This document shows positions 14,773 to 57,400 of a DNA stretch of 58,415 nucleotides, piece after piece. Origin of the DNA: Seison nebaliae (Eukaryota; Rotifera; Pararotatoria; Seisonacea; Seisonidae); assembly GCA_023231475.1 (NCBI GenBank), contig JALJEE010001240.1, positions 1 to 58,415 of the forward strand. Direction: 5' to 3'. The stretch's first letter is position 1; the number at the start of each line of letters is the position of its first letter. The position numbers and the translations under genes are program-made. Below the pieces are notes generated by a model. That model saw only the letters and a program-made list of their open reading frames with translations, searched no databases and was not told the DNA's origin.

Positions 14773-17700
14773 GATAAAATTCAATTGACAATTGATATTG
14801 ACTGTGTTTTGAAATGACTTGTTGTTGAAATGTTATAGTTGAAATTATTTGAATGATTAATGAATTTGAATGAATAGATCGTGAAATGATAATTCACTTC
14901 ATATTTTGAAAATTAAATATGTGGGAATAAGTTGAAAGGCCGCTCCGTTTTTTTTTGTATTGAAAAAATTTAATTGAGGAAAATTGAAGGAAATTGTTAT
15001 TAAAAATTCAAATTTTTAGTTTTACTTTCTAAAAAAATTATTATTCTTCTTTTCTCCCAAACGACTTTTTTTGAAATATATTTAAAATTCATAGAATTTC
15101 TTTTAAAGAAAACATGTTGTGATCTGATGATGATGAGAAATGGTAAAATAAATAGAGACTATTGATTGATTGATATTTGTGTAATGGAAAATTCATTTTC
15201 ATCAAATTACACGTAACATTTCCTCAAAATAAAAATGAGAACTCAAATTTGATCTTATTATATTTCGTCTTCTACTCATAAACTCATTTCTCACAGAAAG
15301 TATATTTTTTTATGATGAAAAGGGAAAGAAGATTTGTGTGGAATATGATTGTATAAGATCAATAAAATAAATTTGTGGTAAAATAAAAATAAATATTTCT
15401 TGATACATTTTCATGAGGAAGAGAGAAAATCAAAAATAATTTCGAGAAACTGCATTCTCTTACATCATCCAATCAGTGGATTGTTATGCTTCATCAAAAC
15501 AGATGAAATGTGAAGAAAATAAAAGGGACAATAGGGAAGACAATTGATTTGGTTGAGTTGCATGACCGATATCGATATCCATTTCAAATCATTAAATAGA
15601 TAAAAATGAACTATCAAAACAAACACAATCGATAAAAGTTAATTCGCTATCCATAAAACTTATCGGATGATGACGACGACGACCATTTTGACCACCGTCG
15701 AACAAAATCATCAACCAGAAAATGGATGGAAGAGAAGGAAGGAGGGAAAAAAAAGAATTATACGAACAGGAAGTTCCCACTGACCTAATGGGAAAGGAGT
15801 AAAAGGAGTGAAGTAAATTAATTATTTTATCACGTCAATTCAATTGAGTAGAAGAGAAAATGTTGTAAAAGACGAAAATTCCTCGCATGTGATCCATCGG
15901 GTGGGAACTACACACTAATTACGTCATAAGTTGCAACATGATTTCTTTTTGGAATTTGAGTATGTGTGTGGTGAGATTGATGAAAATCAGTTCGAGAAGA
16001 ATTAGAAGAAAATCAATTTTGAAGTTCCACAATTTATTAGGGAAATTGGAAAGGAAAACAATGAGTTAAACGACGAGAAAGATGAGAAAGAAGACGGAAA
16101 TTAATTGAAAATGTAATAAACTTCCGTCGCCTAGCTACTTTGGATGTAATTCATTCAATATTCTCATATTTGCATTCGAAGTATTCTCATCGGAAATTGG
16201 AAAGAATTTACTTCTGAGTTATGTCAAGGAAATCCATTCGACTATACTTCAAACATTGGGGAAAATAACTGATTTCTTCCTATTACCCAACTCCTTCACA
16301 AGAACGTTTATGATGGTTAATAGATCTTAAAATAATTTCACTTAGAAACTTATCAGTTTCATTGAATTCAATTAAATCTCTAATGTCAATATGAACATAG
16401 AGTAGAACATGAATAAGCGCAAATCAATATCCTTTCCTTCTTGTTCAACTTTGATATTATCGATCTTATTATTCTTTGAATGAAGGAGGAAGATGCGGAA
16501 AAAACTATTTTTTTTTCGGTACTCACTTCGGAAACAGTAAGAAATGAAATGATAATCAATTAATTTTGAAGGTTAATCGATTGTTGTTCTAATATATTTA
16601 CAATAGACAAGTGTCCTTCCCCTCCTTACTTGTATGTCCGTCCTTGAGCAGATGAGTTAAACGAAATTCTTCTCCTCCAACAATATTCTGCGGTTTTTAC
16701 ATTGAATAATTTAATTGAATAATCAACCGTTCTTATTACATGATCATTAAATTAATTATGAGAATTATATTACTCACCATCCATTAGATGGAAATGATGG
16801 ATTTAATTAAGAAAGAAAAACAATCGTTCATAAAAGTGTGAGTGGGAGGGAATTGAGTAGAAACCGCAAAGAATAATAAAAAAGAAGAAACGATTGAAAT
16901 TGGGAAGAAGATAGATAGTGGATCCTTTTCAATAAAATGATTTGTTTGTCAATCGATGAAATATTATCGATATAAATCGTTAATCCAAAAATGCTGCCAA
17001 AAACATGCGGAGATAAAAAAGAAAGATGAACTGGTCCATCCAAACAATATGGTTTGGTTCCTGTATTCTGATATTTACATTTTATTTTACTTTCCTTTTT
17101 CTTCCTTAAACGATTCTTCATTTTTTTTATGATGATGAAAAAACCATATTAATTTTTCCGTAGATGGCATGCTTCAGCTACTTTCTCCATTTCCGTCATT
17201 TCCTCATGAAAAATGGCTGTTCTTACTTCTTTGTGTCTTATTCTTTTCTTTTCTTCAAGTGAAAATGATCAGAGGTAAGCAACAATTATGCACAAAACAG
17301 AATGGAAAATAAAGGTAGACAGAAGATATTTTTTATTTCTTCATCTCCATATTTCGTCAAAAGAAAGAAAGAAAGATTCGACAAACTTATAGCAAAGTGA
17401 TAGTGACTGATAGTAACTAACGATTACCAGATTATGGATGTTCATATTTTTCGAACCTTGAATGTTAGAAACATCGAACTGATGGAAATATATCATTCAT
17501 TTGTAAATCTTTGAAGATGTTCGACGTAATCATCATTCATCATACATTGATGGTTACAACAAGAAGAAATAAGAAGGAAAAAGAAAAATGTCGAATATAT
17601 TAGAATAATCGCGGTTATAATCATCCCAACCTCCCTCCCGTTCAATCTCGTCTCTATTCGAATCGGGTAAGTAAAAGGAGGTGGATAGTTTGGTAAATGA

Positions 17701-25472: not shown

Positions 25473-26431
25473 TTAATTGGTAATACTTTCATATGAAAAT
25501 TTGGCAGGAGAATCCAATGCAATTTGGATTTCTCCCCTCGCTTTCTCCATTACTCCGATAGCTAAATGGGCGAGAAGTCCCTCCGTATCGAAACGATAAG
25601 TACTTTTAAGTTTCTCATAAATTTCAGCTTCTGCTGCATATTCTGATTTGATAGCTTCGGCTTGTTTCTCTGCTGATTGAACAAGAATTTCTGCATCATT
25701 CATCGCTCGTTGTTTTTGGATGATGGCATCTTTTTGCGCTTTCACTAATTCAGTATTGGCAATTGTCATTTTTTTCGGTCGCTCTTTTATTGCCACATCG
25801 ATCTTTTCTTTTGCATGTTCTTTCTCTTGAACGGCATTATCGAACTGATAAGGTCGTCGAATGTCACTGACTTGGAGATCGGCGACAGTACATGAGAATT
25901 GATTCAAATAAGTCTCTGTAACATTTTGCATGTCCATCTGGAATTGTAGTCGAAGATTCTGATATTCACTCGTATCATATTTCACACATGTCTCGTGAAT
26001 AGCGGCAAGTGCTACTTGTCGGAGAACGTCGACACATTCGTCATGATCTTTGAATTCTTTGACGACTTGAATAATTGAATCAATCTGGAATTTGTATTGA
26101 AAAGCGACATCTAAATTAATGTTGACTCCATCCGAATTCATACAGATGACATCGTCAAATGTCATCGTTTTGTAGATGGAGGGAAAGATGAGGAATTTGA
26201 AACCGATCGGTCCCACATGTAATCCCTGTCGCATCACATTATTACCCAATTTCTTCCAAATCGTATCATATTTTATTCCAACTAAATGTCAAAGAAGAAT
26301 AAAAAGATTGAAAGAATCAAATGAAAACGTTCAGTTGTACTCAATTTACGGAACGATGAAGCAACCAATGCTATTATCACAATAATAACAGCGAGCACTA
26401 TTCCAATAATTCCACCTGCTACTTTCTTCAT
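25473..26431 (-). CDS. SPFH/band-7 (prohibitin-homology) membrane protein
   Basis: Two exons, 26431-26329 and 26281-25473, 303 residues. The N terminus carries one transmembrane helix (about residues 6-27, GGIIGIVLAVIIVIIALV). After it the sequence has SPFH-type features: ELGIKYDTIWKKLG, GLHVGPIGFKFLIFPS, a beta-rich stretch with DGVNINLDVAFQYKFQ, and then a long Ala/Glu/Lys-rich helix (about 170-265) typical of the stomatin/prohibitin superfamily. Members scaffold membrane microdomains and chaperone membrane proteins. It is not a close match to prohibitin 1/2, stomatin or erlin signatures that I know, so I give no symbol. The 47-bp intron falls just after the membrane helix. Confidence 0.75.
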
Positions 26432-34320: not shown

Positions 34321-36087
34321 TCAAAAATTCTCTTTAACAATTTTCTCTATTTCTTCACTTAATTCTTTCGCTTTCAAATAACTTATGATGGATTCCGCAT
34401 AAATCCTCACAGCGTCTTCAGTACCACTCGGTCGAACAAATGAACGACACGAATCTTTATTCACCATATTATGATTTTCAATAATTTTATCGATCAATTC
34501 CTGAATTTGAATTGGTCCGATAATTTTTAATTCGTTCTCACTCGTCTTAATTGCGTATCGATCTTTAACGATTAATTTTGAAAGATGGAAATAATTATCG
34601 AGATAAATTTCACTCCACGCCACTGCACTATGTCGTGAAGAGTTGGATGGATAATGATATTGGAGAAGAATTTCCACACAAATCATATTTGTAATTGCAT
34701 CGCCAATAGAACGATTGATGATATTGGAGAATAATCTTAATAAAGTTCGCGATTCTTTTACTTCCTTCTTCTTTATCATCTCCACATTCTTCTCTGATAC
34801 TTTCTCATAAAATTTCTGTGAGAATAAAATGGTTCCATGACCGTTCGCTTCGAAATAAATGGAAATATCATATTTCATTCCTTCACGATGTAAATATTTC
34901 ACTCCCGTTTTCGTCAATGAAGTTCCGATATTTTCTTTCTCATTCAAATATTTCGTCGACGCTCCATTCGCATAACCCGTTTGAATACAACGGAATGTTA
35001 ATTGGTCCTTCAATTCAGCTTCTTTCAACCATCGATTGAGAGTTTTGGCGAAAATAATCAGGATTTTATCACCATCCAATAAAATGAATTTATCATTTTC
35101 TGATTTGTAAGAATAAATTATTCGATCAGCATCACCATCAAATGAGCAACAACGATCATTTATCTGGTAAGGTGGCGAGAGTTTGGATGAAAATAATCCA
35201 GAAGGAAATGTTTGTTGCGTTTTCACAAAATCTGCTCCACAATCCACATTTAATGTAGTACCTAAAAATTAATAATTATTTAAAAAACTTCCTTCGAAAA
35301 ATTACGAACAACAATCAGAAGATTGACGAGTGTCATCAATTAGTTCATAATTAAATTTAAAATTTCCATCAATTTTTTCAAATTTATCATTAATATCATC
35401 TAGCAATCGTTTGACTGTCGGCCCTCCAATTCCGTTGGCAGCGTCAATAAATAATTTATTTTGATGATTTTTATTATTCAATTGTAAAACGTTTAATAAT
35501 TTCACGGTATTTTCCACGAAATCTTCTTTGTAAATATTTTTCACTTTTTCAACGGGAATTTTTTCGTTAATTCTCATCACTCCATAATGAAGTTTTGGTG
35601 TTGTCACTTCACCAATATTAATAAAAGAAATTGTTAATCGTTTAAATATCTTTTCAATAATTCCCAAAAATCGCTGAGTTGATGGTCTCGTATCTCCACC
35701 AATTATCACTAATGATTTTCCTTTGCCATCCAGTTGATCAGGATAAGTTTTCCAAAGGAAATCTAACGATTTGTCAATTGAAGTTATTTTGATGAATTCA
35801 TCTAAATTACTCTCTGATTTCAAATTCAACATTCCCCCATCAATATCGACGATTTTTATTCCGTTATCTTCCACCGGATTATGAGACGCTGTCACAATAA
35901 TTCCCATCGCGTCATTGGGATGTGTTTGGGATTCCAATGACATAAAACATGTCGTCCAAGCGACAATTGGATCTAAATATTTCGAATTAGCTCGAAATCC
36001 TGCCGTTCCATAACTCCGAACTTTTCCCGGAATATCATTCAACGGATACTCATTAAGAACTTCTCCCAGTATCTTCTTGAACGTCAT
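34321..36087 (-). CDS. PGM3: phosphoacetylglucosamine mutase
   Basis: Two exons, 36087 to 35313 (or 35310) and 35261-34321, 571 or 572 residues against 542 in human. It interconverts GlcNAc-6-phosphate and GlcNAc-1-phosphate for UDP-GlcNAc, and so feeds chitin, N-glycans and GPI anchors. The phosphoserine loop TASHNP is at about 66-71 (Ser68). The metal loop DGDADR is at about 300-305, and the phosphate-binding RPSGTED is at about 535-541. The frame is open upstream through a TTG, but ATG (36087) is the first start and lies shortly after a TTTTCCTGAA/CAG-type acceptor, so a non-coding first exon is likely. The donor is ambiguous: two GT dinucleotides three bases apart (GATT/GTT/GTTCG) both keep the frame and would add or drop one Cys. 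Confidence 0.92.
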
Positions 36088-36558
36088 TATTTTCAAATTA
36101 TTTTCCTGAAAAGAATTTAATAATTTCTCTCAAATTTAAAAACTTGAAGTTTTCTCCAGAACGGCTATCAAGTTGAACTGGAATCAAAATATTTCTTTCT
36201 CTTCAAACGATTCTCATGTATTTGATTTCTTATCGAGAAATCTATAAAGGAAATGATGTGAAAAAGATGGTATTATGTGATGGTGTCAAACAGATGTTAA
36301 GACCCTATAAATATCAACTACTTTAAATGTCATGAATTAAATGTCAAGAGTGAAATATCAGAAAAGTAATCCAGATAGGTTTAATACTGTAGGAAAGAAG
36401 AATAATTTCCGGTTAAACTTGTCCACATAATGACATTTTTTTAAATTTATTCTATTAATTATAAGAAATGTGATGGGATATTCGTTATTTACATAGAATT
36501 AAGAAAATATAATAATAATAATATTAAACAAGATTATTGTCGATATACATCTGATATC
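36088..36558. other. intergenic
   Basis: Short spacer between PGM3 and the serine protease 3' end. It holds the presumed PGM3 promoter; no other feature seen. Confidence 0.5.
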
Positions 36559-38001
36559 TCATAACGTATATTTATGGACAACGCTTCTAATCCATTCATT
36601 GAATCGACTGATTTTGGTATAAACTCCAAAATTGTTCGGTTTAGCACATCCCCGACCCCAGCTTACTATTCCAGCCAGTATGTAAGGTTGAGTGTTTTTC
36701 TTCTGATTCTTTCTGATTTTGGACGGAATATCAATTGGTCGATCGGTCGGCCACATCGGACAAACTAGAGGGCCTCCACTATCACCTTTACACGCATCGG
36801 CACCACCTGCTACTCGACCTGCACATAAATGGAAATCTTTTATACGATTCGGTCGATGATACTTTTTACATTCCTCCGTCGACACAACTGTTAAATCTGC
36901 GAATTTTATCGTTTTCAATGTCGCTATAATAATAGAAAGAAAATGAAGAAATTTTAAAAAAAGAAATAAAAACCGGATGAAACGATACTTTCAAACTTCT
37001 TGTCGAAAACTTTTTTGAGTAATTTAGGAATTTTATTAATTTGATAAGCTACTGTAGGAGTGTGACCAATGACGGTACAACATCTTTCATCGAAATTTGC
37101 ATTATTTGCTGGTAGTTGAATCATATCGACATAATCATTCAAAATTGCTTCAACTTTTAATTTGTTGGAATTGAATGGAATTTCTTCCGATTTAATATTC
37201 ACAACTTTCTTCTCTTTCGTCCAAACTAATTGAAAACGAGTTTTAAGAAATGTTTTAAATCGTTGCAAAATTGATGGTTTCTTTCGTTTACGAGCTAATT
37301 GAACGAGAACTATATCATTATCATTCCTCGTCAAATTGAAAGTGGCAATATTTCCCCATGCGTCATAATTCGGATGTCGAACAATTCGTCCAATATTAAA
37401 CAATTGTTCATGTCCCTCATCCACACCGATTGTTGTATCACCTAAAGAGATTTGTGAATTCTCATAATATTCTTCATCAGTAAAATATTTGAAACAATGT
37501 GCCGCTGATACGATCCATTGACGATGAATGAGACTACCTCCACAAATATGTTTCCCATTATACAAAATAGCTGCTTGCCATGGAAATCGTTTGATTCCAT
37601 CAAATCGATTTTCGTCGAATGTCAATTCTGTTTTCAAATGACCATCTTCCGTCCGTTTATATTTCCTGATGACAATAAGATCATTTCTCTTCAAATTCGT
37701 TCTTATCGTTTCACTTTTCCATTCTTTCTCTTCTCCTGATTTGTCGATTTTTGACGTTGTCTGTGAAAAAACTTTTTCCGATCTACCATTTATTATCCAA
37801 CGACCGCCAACAATTCTTTTCACTCGATTATGAAATTTTTTCCCAGCGGCACATCCTAAAAATTAATTGAAAATTTGAAAAATAAATAATTGGAAGAGAA
37901 AGATTTAATTAACTTTCAATAACGGCGATATTTGATGGTATTAGACAACTAAGGAATAATAGAATTTTTAATATTCTCTTTATTAACTTCACTATTTTCA
38001 T
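36559..38001 (-). CDS. secreted trypsin-like serine protease with insertions
   Basis: Three exons, 38001-37914, 37855-36974 and 36923-36559, 444 residues. A signal peptide ([17 protein letters not shown]) is followed by a very short propeptide with one Cys (C31) and RVKR/IVGG at 40-47, so activation is after Arg43. The triad is complete: SAAHC (His149), NDNDIVL (Asp210) and GDSGGP (Ser372). Asp366 in [10 protein letters not shown] sets trypsin-type Lys/Arg specificity. About 70 residues, highly charged, are inserted between IVGG and FPWQAA, where chymotrypsin-fold proteases have about a dozen. A second basic insertion (about 216-265) follows the Asp. The usual GWG.T is replaced by IGHTPT. RVKR fits the proprotein-convertase consensus, so furin-like activation is plausible. 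Arthropod relatives act in digestion, moulting or immunity. Confidence 0.85.
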
Positions 38002-38622: not shown

Positions 38623-40804
38623 TCAGTAAATGAGAGGGAATATACGATATCTCACCCGATTTGCATAACATTTCCAATAACATCCATATTTCTCCTCACA
38701 TATCTTTCCGTCGCGATAATCACGATTGATTAGCATCGAGGTATAATAAAAGACGTAAAACCATGGAAGTGCATATTTAACTCCTGGAAAAAAAGTTTTT
38801 TAATTTAAATTTTTTTCAAATTAAATTTTTTTGAAATCCTGCAAAAAAAGTCCAACCACAAGGGATGCTCCACGAGAGAGCCATAAGTATGTCACCCAAA
38901 TAATTGGGATGACGACAAATTCCCCACCATCCGGAAACCAACAATTTTTTATTCCATTTAGTTTCAATCGTTTCTAGATCTTGAAAAAAATCATATTATG
39001 AATTTCTTCTATTTTAAATTTTTAAAGAAAGAATTAACTGCAAAATTGAGGAGCATTTGGATTCTTTCGGAATTGATTTTTTTGATTGTTCGAGCCTCGA
39101 TATATTAGATATCCTACAACCATTAAAACGATGGCTAAGGAGAATAAGATTCGTTTTGGTGCCGGATGAACGCGGAACATAAATTGAGTTTGGAGTGAAT
39201 AAACGAAGGGAATCCAGACAAAATCTCCGAAAGCCAACATGAAACCGAAACCTTCAGCTAAGATGTCCATTGTATTCAAAACGGCTTCCTAATATTAATT
39301 ATATGATTGATAATAGAAATTTGATTTTAGAAATATATTTGAAAATACTAAACTTCATACCATAAAGTATCAAGAACGTATAAGTTCTGAAAGACGCCAA
39401 CGATGACTAGACAAGGATTGAGTTTCCCTTGATTTTGCCAATCACATACAATAAAAGCAATATTGAGAACAGCCTAATGAAATTGATGTAGAGAAAAAAG
39501 GATATAATTCTTGTTTAACCCATCCGATTAAACCAGGGCGTAATTCAGCAAAAAATTTCAAATCTAAAATTCTTGATCCGAGTCGAATTCGTGGATTCAA
39601 TTCTCGACCCATGAAAAAGTCATAAACACAATGGCCCGATTGTCCGCACGGTGATAATTCCCATGGTTGACATTGTTTCCCTCTCAAATATAGAGCGAGC
39701 GATAACAAGAAAGTGAGAAATATAGCAGAAGATATGATTCCAATGTAGTGGGCGACAATCAATTGGGAGAGATTTATCTTGAAACTGATTAGATAATATA
39801 CAAGCAGAGTAACAAAATACGCATGAATGCCGTTACAATTGTATATTAATCGTTGACGATTTCTTAACGGTTGACCTTCGATGACTCGTCCAAAGGGTAG
39901 AATGTACAGGATGACTTGGAAGAGCACCCAAAGCACAACCAAGCCCAATCCAACTTTATCTAAGAGTATTTTCCATGAAGGCAAATAATGAATTTTCGAC
40001 CATAAACTAATTTTCTATGAAAATTTATTATTTATGGAATTTTTCAATAATTAAATGGTTAACTGGATAACAACATATATTTAAGTATAACACTAATGCT
40101 GGTAAGAATATGATAAGAATAATGACACCGAACGGACCACCAAACTCCCATTGTCGTTCGTTACATAACGGCATTTCCTGTTCTAAAATTTTCCTTAATG
40201 GAATCGCATCTTTATTCATCCTTTTCGGCATATCCTTCACAGAAACTTCCTATAAGACAGTCGTCGTTAACTCAGCCTCAGATATGTGGACTATTAATTT
40301 AAACTTGTAAATTTTTCATGTTCACCGGAATTCCTCCTTTTGGGGTATTCACTACCAGAGTTTCGGATTCTGATGGTTTAGAGAGCTCTGCAACGCAATC
40401 TCTTGGAATGGGACACGGATCTGGACAACATTTGGGTTTTGAACACTTATCTGGTGGACAACTTCCGGCATTGTTATTTATTTGACCATCTGGTTTCCCG
40501 TCCTTATCATCTATCACGTTTTGACGATGATCGTAAAAGAAATTAAAAGAATTTAAACCTAATTGAATAAAATTTTTCGGAGACTGAAAAGCATAGATGA
40601 ATTATTTGATGGAGATTGAACATTGAAGAAAAATGTAACATCAACGAATTTCGGAGCGACAGCAACAATAACTCCGTTTTGGAACTGACACAAATAGGAA
40701 CCGTCATTAGCAAGAATTTTGGCTTTGTAGTACAAATCGCTACCCGGCCACTTAGCCATAACCATTTGACCAACGTCAATTTTCTTATCCATCACTTCTA
40801 CCAT
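38623..40804 (-). CDS. LBR: lamin B receptor (Tudor plus sterol C14-reductase-like)
   Basis: Eight exons: 40804-40622, 40583-40305, 40249-40064, 40014-39520, 39473-39354, 39288-39039, 38979-38857 and 38783-38623, 598 residues (human LBR 615). An N-terminal Tudor domain (about 8-58, [16 protein letters not shown]) precedes a Cys/Pro/Lys-rich nucleoplasmic linker. The multi-pass ERG4/ERG24 domain starts at about 189 ([12 protein letters not shown]). Reductase signatures are intact: [12 protein letters not shown] at about 347, [41 protein letters not shown] and the C-terminal [12 protein letters not shown] anchors B-type lamins and heterochromatin at the inner nuclear membrane. The reductase part is enzymatic in vertebrates; arthropods are sterol auxotrophs, so here its enzymatic role is doubtful. 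The first intron is only 38 bp. The Tudor head separates it from plain DHCR or TM7SF2 proteins. Confidence 0.93.
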
Positions 40805-45684: not shown

Positions 45685-46604
45685 ATGAATTTTACTTCCC
45701 ATTGGTCTGACTTTTACGTAAAAATGAAAAGGAAATTTTCATCACAACCAAAAGAACCGAAAGAACCGAAAATGAAAGAGGATAATTCGAAAAATCTTGT
45801 GAAAGAAACGACGAGAGAGAAGGAAGTTGATGAAGAAAGTTCGTCGAAGAAAATGGAAGAAAAGAAGATTAAAAAGATGACGATAGTGAAATATAATATA
45901 GTTGATTTTATTTGTCCGATTTTAGACCATAAAGTGAGGATAGGTCATGGAATAACGATGCCCTGTTGTAATGATAATGTTTGTCGGTTAATCTAAATAA
46001 TTTATTTTCATAACCATTTTTTTTTAGAGCTTGTCTCTACAAATATATGTTGGTAAATATTGAAGGTGTCAGTTTGTTCGAGATGATACCATGTCCATGT
46101 TGTTTGGGTGTCATGGATTTCGAAGTGGCTCGATTATTGTTGAAAAAAAGAGACATGGAAAAACTTTTATTGAAATTATTGAAGTATTGGCAAGCAAACA
46201 ATAAAACGTTCCATTGTACTAATGCGAATTGTTCGAACTTTATTGAACTTCCTGAGACGTTAAAAGATCCAATTTATAAATGTACTCACTGTGGAATGGA
46301 GGGTTGTGTCGTTTGCGGCGTTTCGCATAACAATGAAATAACATGTGCAGAAGCAGCAGACAAAACAATACTGGCCACTCATGAATATTTTGTTCGAGAA
46401 AACTTTGATGGTAAAATTATGAAATGTCCTAAATGTAAGATTTACATAAGTAAGTTGGCTGGATGCGATTATATTCATTGTCGTTGTCAAACTGAACTTT
46501 GCTACGCCACTAAAGGATTACGAAGGGGACCAGATGGTTGTCATTGTAAATCACCATCACGCGGTTATCAAGCATGTGCTCCCGATTGCAAAGGTTGTCA
46601 TTAG
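45685..46604 (+). CDS. degenerate RBR (RING-IBR-RING) ubiquitin ligase-like protein
   Basis: Two exons, 45685-45986 and 46028-46604, 292 residues. A charged Lys/Glu-rich N terminus precedes a RING1-like region (about 75-127). There CPIL replaces the usual C..C pair and Asn stands at the normal His ligand (CCNDNVCRACL), so zinc sites are missing. The IBR (about 164-207) has a full ligand set: HC.NANC, KC.HC, GCVVC and SH...TC. RING2 (about 234-265) reads CPKCKIYISKLAGCDYIHC, with the catalytic Cys at 247, but the late ligand Cys in LCYAT is lost. RBR ligases pass ubiquitin through that catalytic Cys. Activity is plausible, though E2 recruitment by RING1 is doubtful. Confidence 0.7.
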
Positions 46605-47867
46605 GTATCTTTTATTATTCCTAATGTCCATCTAAATGATTCATGTAAATATATCGTCTTCTATCGGTCATAAAATTGACATTTAAATTATTCAATCCAC
46701 TTCAAATCTTCCTCAAAAGTTGAAAGAATCATTCGTGTCGAAAAAATAATATTTTACTCAAAATTTAATTTGTTATTATTATAATTGGTTTTTTAAACAT
46801 CGCATTATTCTTATAAACGATCTTTCAATCGGTCATCAATTTAATATCGTTAATAAAAAATTTTTCAATTTTCTTAAGTTTCTGTAAATTAAATAAATTA
46901 ATAAATAATTTAATTATAAAATCAAAATAGAATTTATTGTAAATATTTTTTTAAAGTTTCCTCAAAAATTGATTGAAAATTAAATAAAAATTAGATAAGA
47001 GAACGAATAAAAGAAGGTTAACCGAATAGAACATTTCTAAATAAATTGTTACAATTAATATGGACAGATGGCAACATTATGTAAATAGGATAGCATCTTC
47101 TTTTATCTTTCAGATAATTTCCACTTTTAATATTGGTCATTTTTATCTTAAAAATTAAATGTTTAATATATTTTAATGAAAATTTTATTATGATATGGGA
47201 AATGATATGACATAGCATATTTTCCCACGTAAGTGAGAGAGAAGAGGAGGAAGAATGAAGCTCAAAATTGATAAGTTCTATTCACATTCAGTTTATTTAG
47301 TTTTCAATTTCCTTAATATAAATATTATGTGGAAATACTAACGAATATTCACCGACTTCATCAATCAATACCAATTTATTATAAATTACCTTATTAAAAA
47401 TAATTAATTATCTTTTCAATAATTATATCTATTGATGACAATTGTAAAGATATTTCATCCACACTTCAAACGATTGATGTCACATATTGTCACAAATTAT
47501 TATATACAGTTTATTATATCATTAATTATACACTTTTTATAAAGAAAGAGAATTTTCTTCTCTATTCGATTCTATTCGAATGAAGTCGGAAGAATCTTAT
47601 TTCTGTGATTCCTATTGTTCCCTCTTTTTCGCATAAATTTCCTTTTCTTTCAATGGTCTATTTTAATTTTTACAAATCATAAAGTTTTCTACGTAAACTT
47701 ATTCATTTTCTCATGCTTATGTTATCAACAAAAGTGTAAATACTTAAAAAGTTCATTAGGAAAAAGGTTTCAAGTATTCTCTTTCGAAATATTCTCTTTA
47801 GAATTTCAAATTACTTCGCATAATTATCTCCTTCACTATTCGGTTAACGTGAATATGTGGCTTTGAT
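46605..47867. other. intergenic with a tiny uORF at its end
   Basis: A+T-rich spacer. No gene seen. At 47855-47866 an ATG-TGG-CTT-TGA mini-frame ends one base before the aminotransferase ATG and may modulate its translation if it is inside the transcript. Confidence 0.4.
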
Positions 47868-49304
47868 ATGTCGGCGATAGAAAAGACAGATTTATTGCTA
47901 TTTACTCCCGGACCTCTTACTACTTCAAGGAAAGTGAAAGAAGCTTTATTGACCGATAAAGGATCGAGAGATACAGATTTTATTCGCTCTATTTCAAATA
48001 TCCAAAGTAAACTTTTAGATTTATTAGGTTTGTATATCTCTTTTCCAATGTCTTCATTTGAGTTTTATTGAAAAATTGAAATATTGCTTGTATTTTAAAA
48101 ATGCCAATTTTCCCATTTTTCTTATATAAATAATGTGAATATTATTTAGAACTGCCAAATGAGAATGAATATTGTTCGGTTTTATTACAAGGAAGTGGCA
48201 CATTTGGATTGGAGGCTGCATTGAACACTTTCCTCCCAAGGAAATCACCGAACGTTAGTTTAATCCATTTGAGATTACTTCGATTCTTTTTCAGGTGCTA
48301 ATTCTCAGTAACGGACGATATGGGGAGAGAGTGGCTCAAATACTTCGACTAATGTCGATCGATTTTACTCTTTGGGAATTTTCGGAAAAACATTCTATCA
48401 AACTATCGGACGTATTGAGGAATTGTGAGGAAAACGATTTTTTACCTGACACTTACACGAACGTTTGGCTCGTCCATTTAGAGACGACGATCGGAGTCTT
48501 GAATGAAGTGGGTGAGATCGGTCAATGGATTAAGAGAATGATGCCAAGTTTTTTTTTGAATTTGAATTGCTTGTTCATCTTAATTAGATGCAATTTATAT
48601 GATCGATGGAATGTCGTCAATTGGTGCGGTTAATTTGGATGATAATACGAAATCGTCGTTTGATGTATTAATTAGTTCGGCGAATAAATGTATTCAAGGT
48701 GTTCCTGGATTCTCTTTCATTATTACGAAAAAGGATCTCTTATTGAATTGTAAAGGTTTTTTTTTCTTTTTTTTTTTAATTTTAAAATAATTCAATTTTT
48801 TAAAAGGAAACAGTCGGTCGTTATCTTTCGATTTAACTGATCAATATTTGTATATGGAGAAAACGGGATGTTTCCGATTCACTCCACCAGTTCAAGTGAT
48901 AATGGCATTCGAATGTGCATTGAATGAATTGTTTGATGAAGGCGGATGTGTGGGTCGAATGAAACGTTATAAGAATAACAATAATCTTTTGCGAACTGGA
49001 ATGAAGTCTCTCGGTTTCACAGAAATAGCTCCATCAAATGAACAAGGCTGGGTTATTACAACATTCCATTACCCGAATAATAATTTCGATTTTCAATCGT
49101 TCTATGAACGTTTGAAAGAACGGAGTTAGTTCCTTCCACAAATTAATTTAAAATTATTTGAAATTATTTTTTTTAGAAATTGTAATTTATCCCGGAAAAT
49201 TGACTAGTGTCAATTCTTTCCGACTTGGCAACATTGGGGATTTACATGAAGATGATATTGAATATCTAGTGCGTTCGATAAAGGAAGTTATGGAGGATAT
49301 GTGA
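47868..49304 (+). CDS. phnW: 2-aminoethylphosphonate-pyruvate transaminase (PhnW type)
   Basis: Six exons, 47868-48027, 48150-48253, 48295-48547, 48588-48755, 48807-49124 and 49177-49304, 376 residues, the usual size for PhnW. It is a PLP class V aminotransferase that converts 2-aminoethylphosphonate plus pyruvate to phosphonoacetaldehyde plus alanine. Family hallmarks run end to end: [70 protein letters not shown] (Asp179 for the PLP nitrogen), [15 protein letters not shown] (PLP lysine Lys206), SRSLSFDL and IVIYPGKLT...FRLGNIGD. Alanine-glyoxylate or serine-pyruvate transaminases lack LLQGSG and the CIQGVPGF block. Five short spliceosomal introns show it belongs to the host genome and is not a bacterial contaminant. 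Confidence 0.88.
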
Positions 49305-49408
49305 CAACATTTCACTCAATTATTTGTTTTTCCAATTCATTAATCCATCGAGGATGTTCCTATCGATGATAAATTGTTTCAATATGAATATTCATAGAAA
49401 TTTTTTAA

Positions 49409-49414
49409 AATAAA
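49409..49414 (+). terminator. polyadenylation signal AATAAA
   Basis: Canonical hexamer about 105 bp after the aminotransferase stop codon. Confidence 0.4.
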
Positions 49415-55989: not shown

Positions 55990-57400
55990 TATTAATATTA
56001 TTTATTAATCAAATTCCCGACGGGATAATAAAGAAAATTTCGATCTTCGCCACTATTGATCAATCGGTGTAATTCCGCGAGAGATTCCAGATCGATTGGC
56101 ATAGATTCTGAGGGGTCGTAGGAGAAAATGAAGTCTCTGAAATTTTGTAGATTCATACTATGAGACAAACCGTAATACCGGAGGGTATATGAAAAGATTG
56201 ATCGATTCTGAAAAAGATTAGCGTTTGTGAGATGAGAAATGTGGAAATTAGATTCGGCGATTTTGTCGATAATAGTAAAAATTCGACAAGAGAAGAGAAT
56301 GGGTAGGGGAAGAAGACCGACTGTTGCGAAAAGCAGAGAACGGTGACATCTGTGAAAACAACAAACTAATCTCCTAATAAGCCGATTGTAAGCGCGGTCA
56401 ATAGACAAGAACGAGCGTTGACTGCATACGAAAATCGTTTCCAGAGAATATAAGGGAAGAACTAAACTCTTAGAAAGCTGTAAACGTGATTTTAAAGGAA
56501 TGAATTTCCTTTTGGGAGAGAAAGAGAAGAAGGCTATGCATAATTTGTTGCAAATATGATCTAACGCAACGGAGGATAGGCTGTAGAAATCAATAGTTGA
56601 ACCGAGAAACATAATGGAGGATTTAAGAGGAATAGTCGAGAAAGAACGTAGATCGGTTGATAATAAACAGCATTTTGACGGATTAATGGATACACCTCTT
56701 TGTGTGTGTAGTAGAGATAAACGTTGATAAGATTGTTTTAGATGACGCAAAGAACGATCTAAAATTACGATGTCGGCTACGTAGGCCATGACATGTGGAA
56801 ACGAATTGTTTCCTATGTGGATGTCACGTGAGTCATTCAGATCACGAAGAACTTCGTCAATGACTAGCCCAAAAATCCAAGGGCCAACAATAGTACCTTG
56901 ACGAATACCGGAATTGATGTGAAATATTTCGCTGAGTCGATCGTCGATGAAGACACGCCCCGTAGATTGGTAGAAAAGATGATATAGAAATCTGAGGAGA
57001 GGAATCTCGACGTTATGACGACACAGATAATTAAGAGCGAATGATACGTCGACAGAGTCGAAGGCTTTAGAAGCATCGAGAAAGAGAATGTGTAGAGAAA
57101 CTTTCTTTTCTTTTGCATCAGATATAGATATCTTAGCGAAGAGTTCCTGATGTCGCAGTTGAAATCGCCACCAATAATGAAGCCGATGTGTCCAGAAGAA
57201 GCGATAATTGATTAGATAGCAGTTAAAGTAGATTGGAAAAAAGTCAGGTCGCTCGGACGAAGATATTGATTGATTGAACATTGAAACATGGTGAAATTCC
57301 GTATCGTGAAATAGAAAACATCAGTGGATAATTGAGTGAAAGAACGAGGAAGGAGATCTTTTGAAACCAATGTACATCGATTTTCATTGAAAACAATTAG
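55990..57400 (-). mobile_element. LINE fragment: endonuclease remnant fused to reverse transcriptase, inactive
   Basis: The minus-strand frame 57281-55998 has reverse-transcriptase motifs: FLDASKAFDSVD (motif A), SGIRQGTIVGP (motif B), then VMAYVADIVIL where motif C should be Tyr-X-Asp-Asp. The first catalytic Asp is Ala, so it is dead. In another frame, 57240-57140 reads FIIGGDFNCDIRNSS, the GGDFN signature of the apurinic-type endonuclease, immediately before the RT frame. An internal deletion near 57130 has removed the linker and early RT. The C-terminal part ends NLINK and is followed by a (TAA)-like tail. It is related to the remnant at 30690-31270. Confidence 0.85.

Follow-up and report, generated by a model that had tools for sequence, protein, structure and literature searches.

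Aminoethylphosphonate (AEP) transaminases of the PhnW/AepZ family are PLP-dependent class V aminotransferases that interconvert phosphonoacetaldehyde plus L-alanine and AEP plus pyruvate, and phosphonopyruvate decarboxylase (PPD) makes phosphonoacetaldehyde, their substrate in the synthesis direction. A coral with all three genes for AEP synthesis, namely PEP mutase, PPD and AEP transaminase, is described in PMC3640398, a locust glycoprotein carrying AEP is reported in PMC6935376, and AEP transaminase and PPD transcripts of bdelloid rotifers were counted as foreign in PMC3499245. The genome of the rotifer Seison nebaliae, a member of the Seisonidea, epizoic on the marine crustacean Nebalia (PMC8351084), resembles that of the coral in containing both PPD and the transaminase, whereas PEP mutase, present in the coral, was not found in the part searched.

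The transaminase gene lies at 47868–49304 on the plus strand of the window, by which we mean the whole 58,415-nucleotide stretch of Seison DNA that was analyzed (contig JALJEE010001240.1). It has six exons and five introns (122, 41, 40, 51 and 52 nt, all GT...AG, A+T content 71–92%) and encodes 376 codons plus a stop; the joined exons, with the frame rebuilt from the window sequence, contain no internal stop, and an in-frame TGA read by eye at 47850–47852 stands five codons upstream of the ATG. The first-pass annotation, made from the letters alone, had described a complete 376-codon frame over six exons with PhnW hallmarks in an apparent arthropod genome: its frame, exon count and length, together with each of the four motifs that it quoted, are correct, and we confirm the gene as real and intact, but the host is a rotifer (the best database match is S. 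nebaliae's own SNEBB_000467) and no arthropod. The features of the gene are as follows.

47868..48027, plus strand: exon 1, with the start codon and TPGPLTTS; NF010006 match at 47883–48026; the deposited model concurs
48150..48253, plus strand: exon 2, with LLQGSG; matched at 48143–48265 in the search with Seison's own protein; no NF010006 match
48295..48547, plus strand: exon 3; NF010006 match at 48292–48540
48588..48755, plus strand: exon 4, holding the PLP lysine K206; NF010006 match
48807..49124, plus strand: exon 5, containing the 57 nt (48966–49022) cut from the deposited model; NF010006 match
49177..49304, plus strand: exon 6, with YPGK, FRLGNIG and the stop codon; NF010006 match
49408..49413, plus strand: AATAAA, a possible polyadenylation signal noted by eye and weak, the sequence being A+T-rich

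A search of the genome contigs with the protein itself returned six matches, exon by exon and all at one place (contig C586); this is the only copy found in the genome searched, among the best candidates scored. The deposited protein SNEBB_000467 (P0001, 357 residues) is identical to the 376-residue model in its start, its end and all five junctions, and omits the in-frame 57 nt of exon 5 as if they were an intron, so that 20 residues become one. This 20-residue stretch is missing in none of 25 animal relatives (none has more than three gaps), each of which is identical to Seison at 9–13 of the 20 residues; the 25 compared are drawn from the 26 other named animal rows among the closest 120 proteins, a second Rotaria socialis row being omitted. 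Because the stretch is kept in 25/25 relatives, homology indicates that the 376-residue splice model is probably preferable to the deposited one.

Elsewhere in the window the following features were noted.

34321–36096, minus strand: pieces of a phosphoacetylglucosamine mutase (AMG1) gene, a eukaryotic-type neighbor
36954–37823, 39442–39984, 25473–26249 (minus strand) and 46047–46604 (plus strand): Trypsin, ERG4/ERG24, Band 7 and IBR domains, unremarkable neighbors in an animal genome
42031–44392, minus strand: one frame weakly matches a phage head-to-tail associated domain (25.6 bits, cut-off 27) and adjoins a 470-residue frame that has no Pfam match
55998–57281, minus strand: RVT_1 (reverse transcriptase) domain at 64 bits, probably part of a retroelement

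By comparison with family models and structures, the Seison protein is a predicted AEP transaminase of the PhnW/AepZ family. It passes NF010006 (400.4 bits, cut-off 296) and TIGR03301 (380.8 bits, cut-off 360.8), and its best matches in the PDB are the PhnW structures 1m32, 7e7g, 9kk8 and 9kka at 253.8–265.9 bits, against only 23.5–73.6 bits for AGXT or serine-type aminotransferase entries; these results bear out the earlier call of a PhnW-type enzyme and speak against a placement nearer the alanine–glyoxylate/serine–pyruvate transaminases, the outcome that it had set against its own call. Bacterial PhnW 1m32 aligns with the Seison protein over nearly its full length (266 bits), with the lysine, the aspartate and the C-terminal arginine all aligned; the Seison gene differs in its five introns, and its product falls 22 bits short of the cut-off of the narrower PhnW model TIGR02326 (378.8 bits, cut-off 400.8). 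In 6pd1, a nucleotidyltransferase–class V aminotransferase fusion that joins a phosphonate cytidylyltransferase to an AEP transaminase, the aminotransferase half matches Seison residues 10–374 at 137.8 bits, far more weakly than PhnW does, and the Seison protein is without the fused domain. K206, D179 and R350, the PLP lysine, the pyridine-nitrogen aspartate and the C-terminal substrate arginine, do not vary across Seison and the 25 animal relatives, nor do they in 20/20 rows of a further alignment (A1). All five other animal proteins tested exceed the TIGR02326 cut-off (419.9–451.6 bits), and so do, among the bacterial proteins tested, 5/5 that are synthesis-linked and 10/10 that are phnX-linked; the Seison miss was accordingly dropped as a mark of a synthesis enzyme, and, since other animals and synthesis-linked bacteria pass, we attribute it to sequence divergence and not to reaction direction.

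Twenty-seven of the closest 120 proteins (best 120 of 7483) are named animal records, Seison's own included, and come from rotifers, molluscs, insects, crustaceans and echinoderms, so that the first-pass annotation's description of the enzyme as mainly bacterial gives no ground for surprise. In trees whose sampling is biased, the proteins and bacterial loci being chosen by likeness to the Seison protein and protists and non-bilaterian animals being absent, 24 animals (three near-copies omitted, Seison represented by the 376-residue model) form one side of a branch with SH-aLRT 99 against 87 bacterial rows (80 loci, 4 plasmid loci and 3 named proteins); the animal branch receives 97/99 in a bootstrapped tree against 49 bacteria, and, when three animals and 90 rows without a species name are added, the animal group consists of 27 animals and 23 such rows (99), with no named bacterium inside it. 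The transaminases of Brachionus plicatilis (P0006) and of bdelloids (P0018, P0055, P0062) share this animal group with Seison's, are 44–49% identical to it and agree with it in family, length and catalytic residues. The Seison branch is much longer than those of the other rotifers and is indeed the longest end branch of the 24 animals (1.03), so that its exact position in the tree is unsure; the Seison protein also ends a few residues before most other animal versions.

On the simplest reading of these trees, the gene has been handed down within animals since at least the time of the bilaterian ancestor, and the Seison gene is, on this phylogenetic evidence, best described as an ordinary representative of an old branch of animal PhnW/AepZ genes and not as a recent acquisition, although an ancient transfer may have preceded the bilaterian ancestor. 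Recent horizontal transfer from bacteria, or bacterial contamination, is exceedingly improbable: the family is abundant in bacteria (at least 588 relatives among at least 594 matched stretches), but the gene has five introns, its neighbors are of eukaryotic type and its animal group is one without bacteria. The same three lines of evidence uphold the earlier claim that this is a host gene and not contamination. The phylogeny that the first-pass annotation had proposed thus favors an animal gene, and, by grouping Seison with rotifers, molluscs, arthropods and echinoderms and giving no sign of recent transfer, argues against its suggestion of a horizontal acquisition, at least by the Seison lineage. 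A scan of viral contigs with exon 1 found no relative.

The bdelloid transaminases (P0062, P0055, P0018 and P0043), Adineta ricciae included, fall within the animal group, and bdelloid PPD (P0190, P0168) groups with Brachionus at 97/83 in a PPD tree in which bacterial rows are partly too divergent for rooting (branches up to 10) and the position of Seison is uncertain. The position of these copies within animal groups suggests that the bdelloid AEP transaminases and PPDs examined were inherited rather than transferred, which conflicts with the foreign listing in PMC3499245, although the transcripts listed there may be other copies.

A gene for PPD is likewise present in the Seison genome, on contig C747 at 15324–16807, where a TIGR03297 profile search gave matches over two of its four exons.

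L027 3325–3453, 3509–3656, 3710–4163 and 4214–4808: the four PPD exons, giving 441 residues

The resulting model is 100% identical to the deposited SNEBB_000792 and scores 471.3 bits (cut-off 312.5). By eye, its N-terminus resembles a mitochondrial presequence; the transaminase model is without one. The search for pathway genes recommended by the first-pass annotation hence succeeded for PPD, and neither PEP mutase nor PhnX was found in the genome searched, which comprises 36.0 Mb in 846 contigs. The published assembly GA2 measures 43.9 Mb in 3301 contigs (PMC8351084), so about 18% of it may be outside the search if, as we infer, the contigs searched are a subset of GA2.

None of five queries (PF13714, TIGR02320, a 272-residue mussel stretch, Segatella AepX and a Brachionus protein) detected PEP mutase in the 36.0 Mb. 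The enzyme should match if present, because identity to the mussel enzyme is 76% or higher in every one of the best 120 of 7045 relatives, two of them from Brachionus. A PF00266 search of the genome missed the transaminase gene of the window, and nulls with short exons therefore needed a control; NF010006 matched five of the six exons, indicating that exon-wise search can work at such divergence (it also gives weak matches, of 24 and 35 bits, at two further class V aminotransferase loci, C257 and C269). Weak PEP mutase-like matches were put down to chance: those at C87 (E 0.014 and 0.020) span about 45 residues of a 3713-residue frame, and another lies at C48 (E 0.49). The match of Segatella AepX at C213 was also rejected, as it covers only AepX residues 1–78, the nucleotidyltransferase part.

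One reading of this result is that the pathway is a remnant, PEP mutase having been lost, and that PPD and the transaminase work on another substrate or on food- or host-derived phosphonopyruvate or phosphonoacetaldehyde. The failure of all five queries, the long end branch of the transaminase and the gene loss reported for the Seison line in PMC8351084 would fit such a history; PPD and the transaminase are both intact, however, the catalytic residues of the latter are kept, and the search covered 36.0 Mb against the 43.9 Mb published. We consider a remnant quite unlikely. Free phosphonopyruvate is not known to be an animal nutrient, which also counts against it. That PEP mutase is truly lost and that Seison finishes AEP from a phosphonate intermediate of its crustacean host or of bacteria is more doubtful again; if true, a phosphonate pathway would be split across two organisms, the epizoic Seison and its supplier.

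The first-pass annotation had instead inferred that the animal catabolizes AEP or turns it over. A catabolic PhnW would convert dietary AEP (from bacteria or host tissue) to phosphonoacetaldehyde, which would pass to PhnX or a dehydrogenase with a saving of phosphate and nitrogen. The reaction is reversible, and the sequence itself does not tell its direction. Among 80 related bacterial loci, phnX is nearby in 40, PEP mutase plus PPD in 5 and neither in 35 (some of them cut by contig ends), and phnX is present in 4/4 plasmid loci; the 40/80 would suit catabolism, yet with 5/80 linked to PEP mutase and PPD these neighborhoods do not settle the direction and were set aside as a guide to it. From bdelloid rotifers, transaminase, PPD and PhnX transcripts have all been reported (PMC3499245). 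In Seison, searches of the 36.0 Mb with the TIGR01422 profile and two bacterial PhnX proteins (E up to 1) detected no PhnX, a weak null given that none of the queries was an animal PhnX, that none of 14 control genomes exceeded the TIGR01422 cut-off, leaving the searches without any positive control, and that about 18% of the assembly may be outside. PPD, which would feed phosphonoacetaldehyde in, is present and intact. Catabolism thus finds no support in these searches, which point towards synthesis, and we regard it as unlikely. A phosphonoacetaldehyde reductase adjoins PPD in Segatella, and a reductase or dehydrogenase would be another possible exit for phosphonoacetaldehyde.

With PPD present and PhnX not in sight, the transaminase running towards AEP is the likeliest exit for phosphonoacetaldehyde, and we infer, with a probability of roughly 0.6, that the Seison enzyme, a predicted member of the old animal PhnW/AepZ branch, mainly makes AEP. 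In the proposed pathway, PEP would be converted via phosphonopyruvate and phosphonoacetaldehyde to AEP, with the transaminase running mainly towards AEP as the last step; PEP mutase would presumably be encoded outside the 36.0 Mb searched, and the AEP would then be used for phosphonolipids or glycan decoration, as in other invertebrates. Of 22 named animal genera counted by eye in the transaminase list (best 120 of 7483), five (Brachionus, Timema, Periplaneta, Octopus and Argonauta) are also among the listed best 120 relatives of both PPD and PEP mutase, a further eight are in one of these lists (Seison via PPD) and nine, including three echinoderms and two shrimps, are in neither, again by eye; as each list holds the best 120 only, absence from it means little and gives no support either. 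In the open-access literature searched we found no paper that reports a measurement of AEP in rotifers or deals with a phosphonolipid in Brachionus, and neither the Seison genome paper (PMC8351084) nor a 2025 rotifer-parasite paper has a word beginning "phosphon" in its main text.

The PPD partner is a useful addition to the transaminase, and with the Seison gene seisonids join monogononts and bdelloids as the third rotifer lineage in an animal family of C–P enzymes that is old and has drawn little notice.
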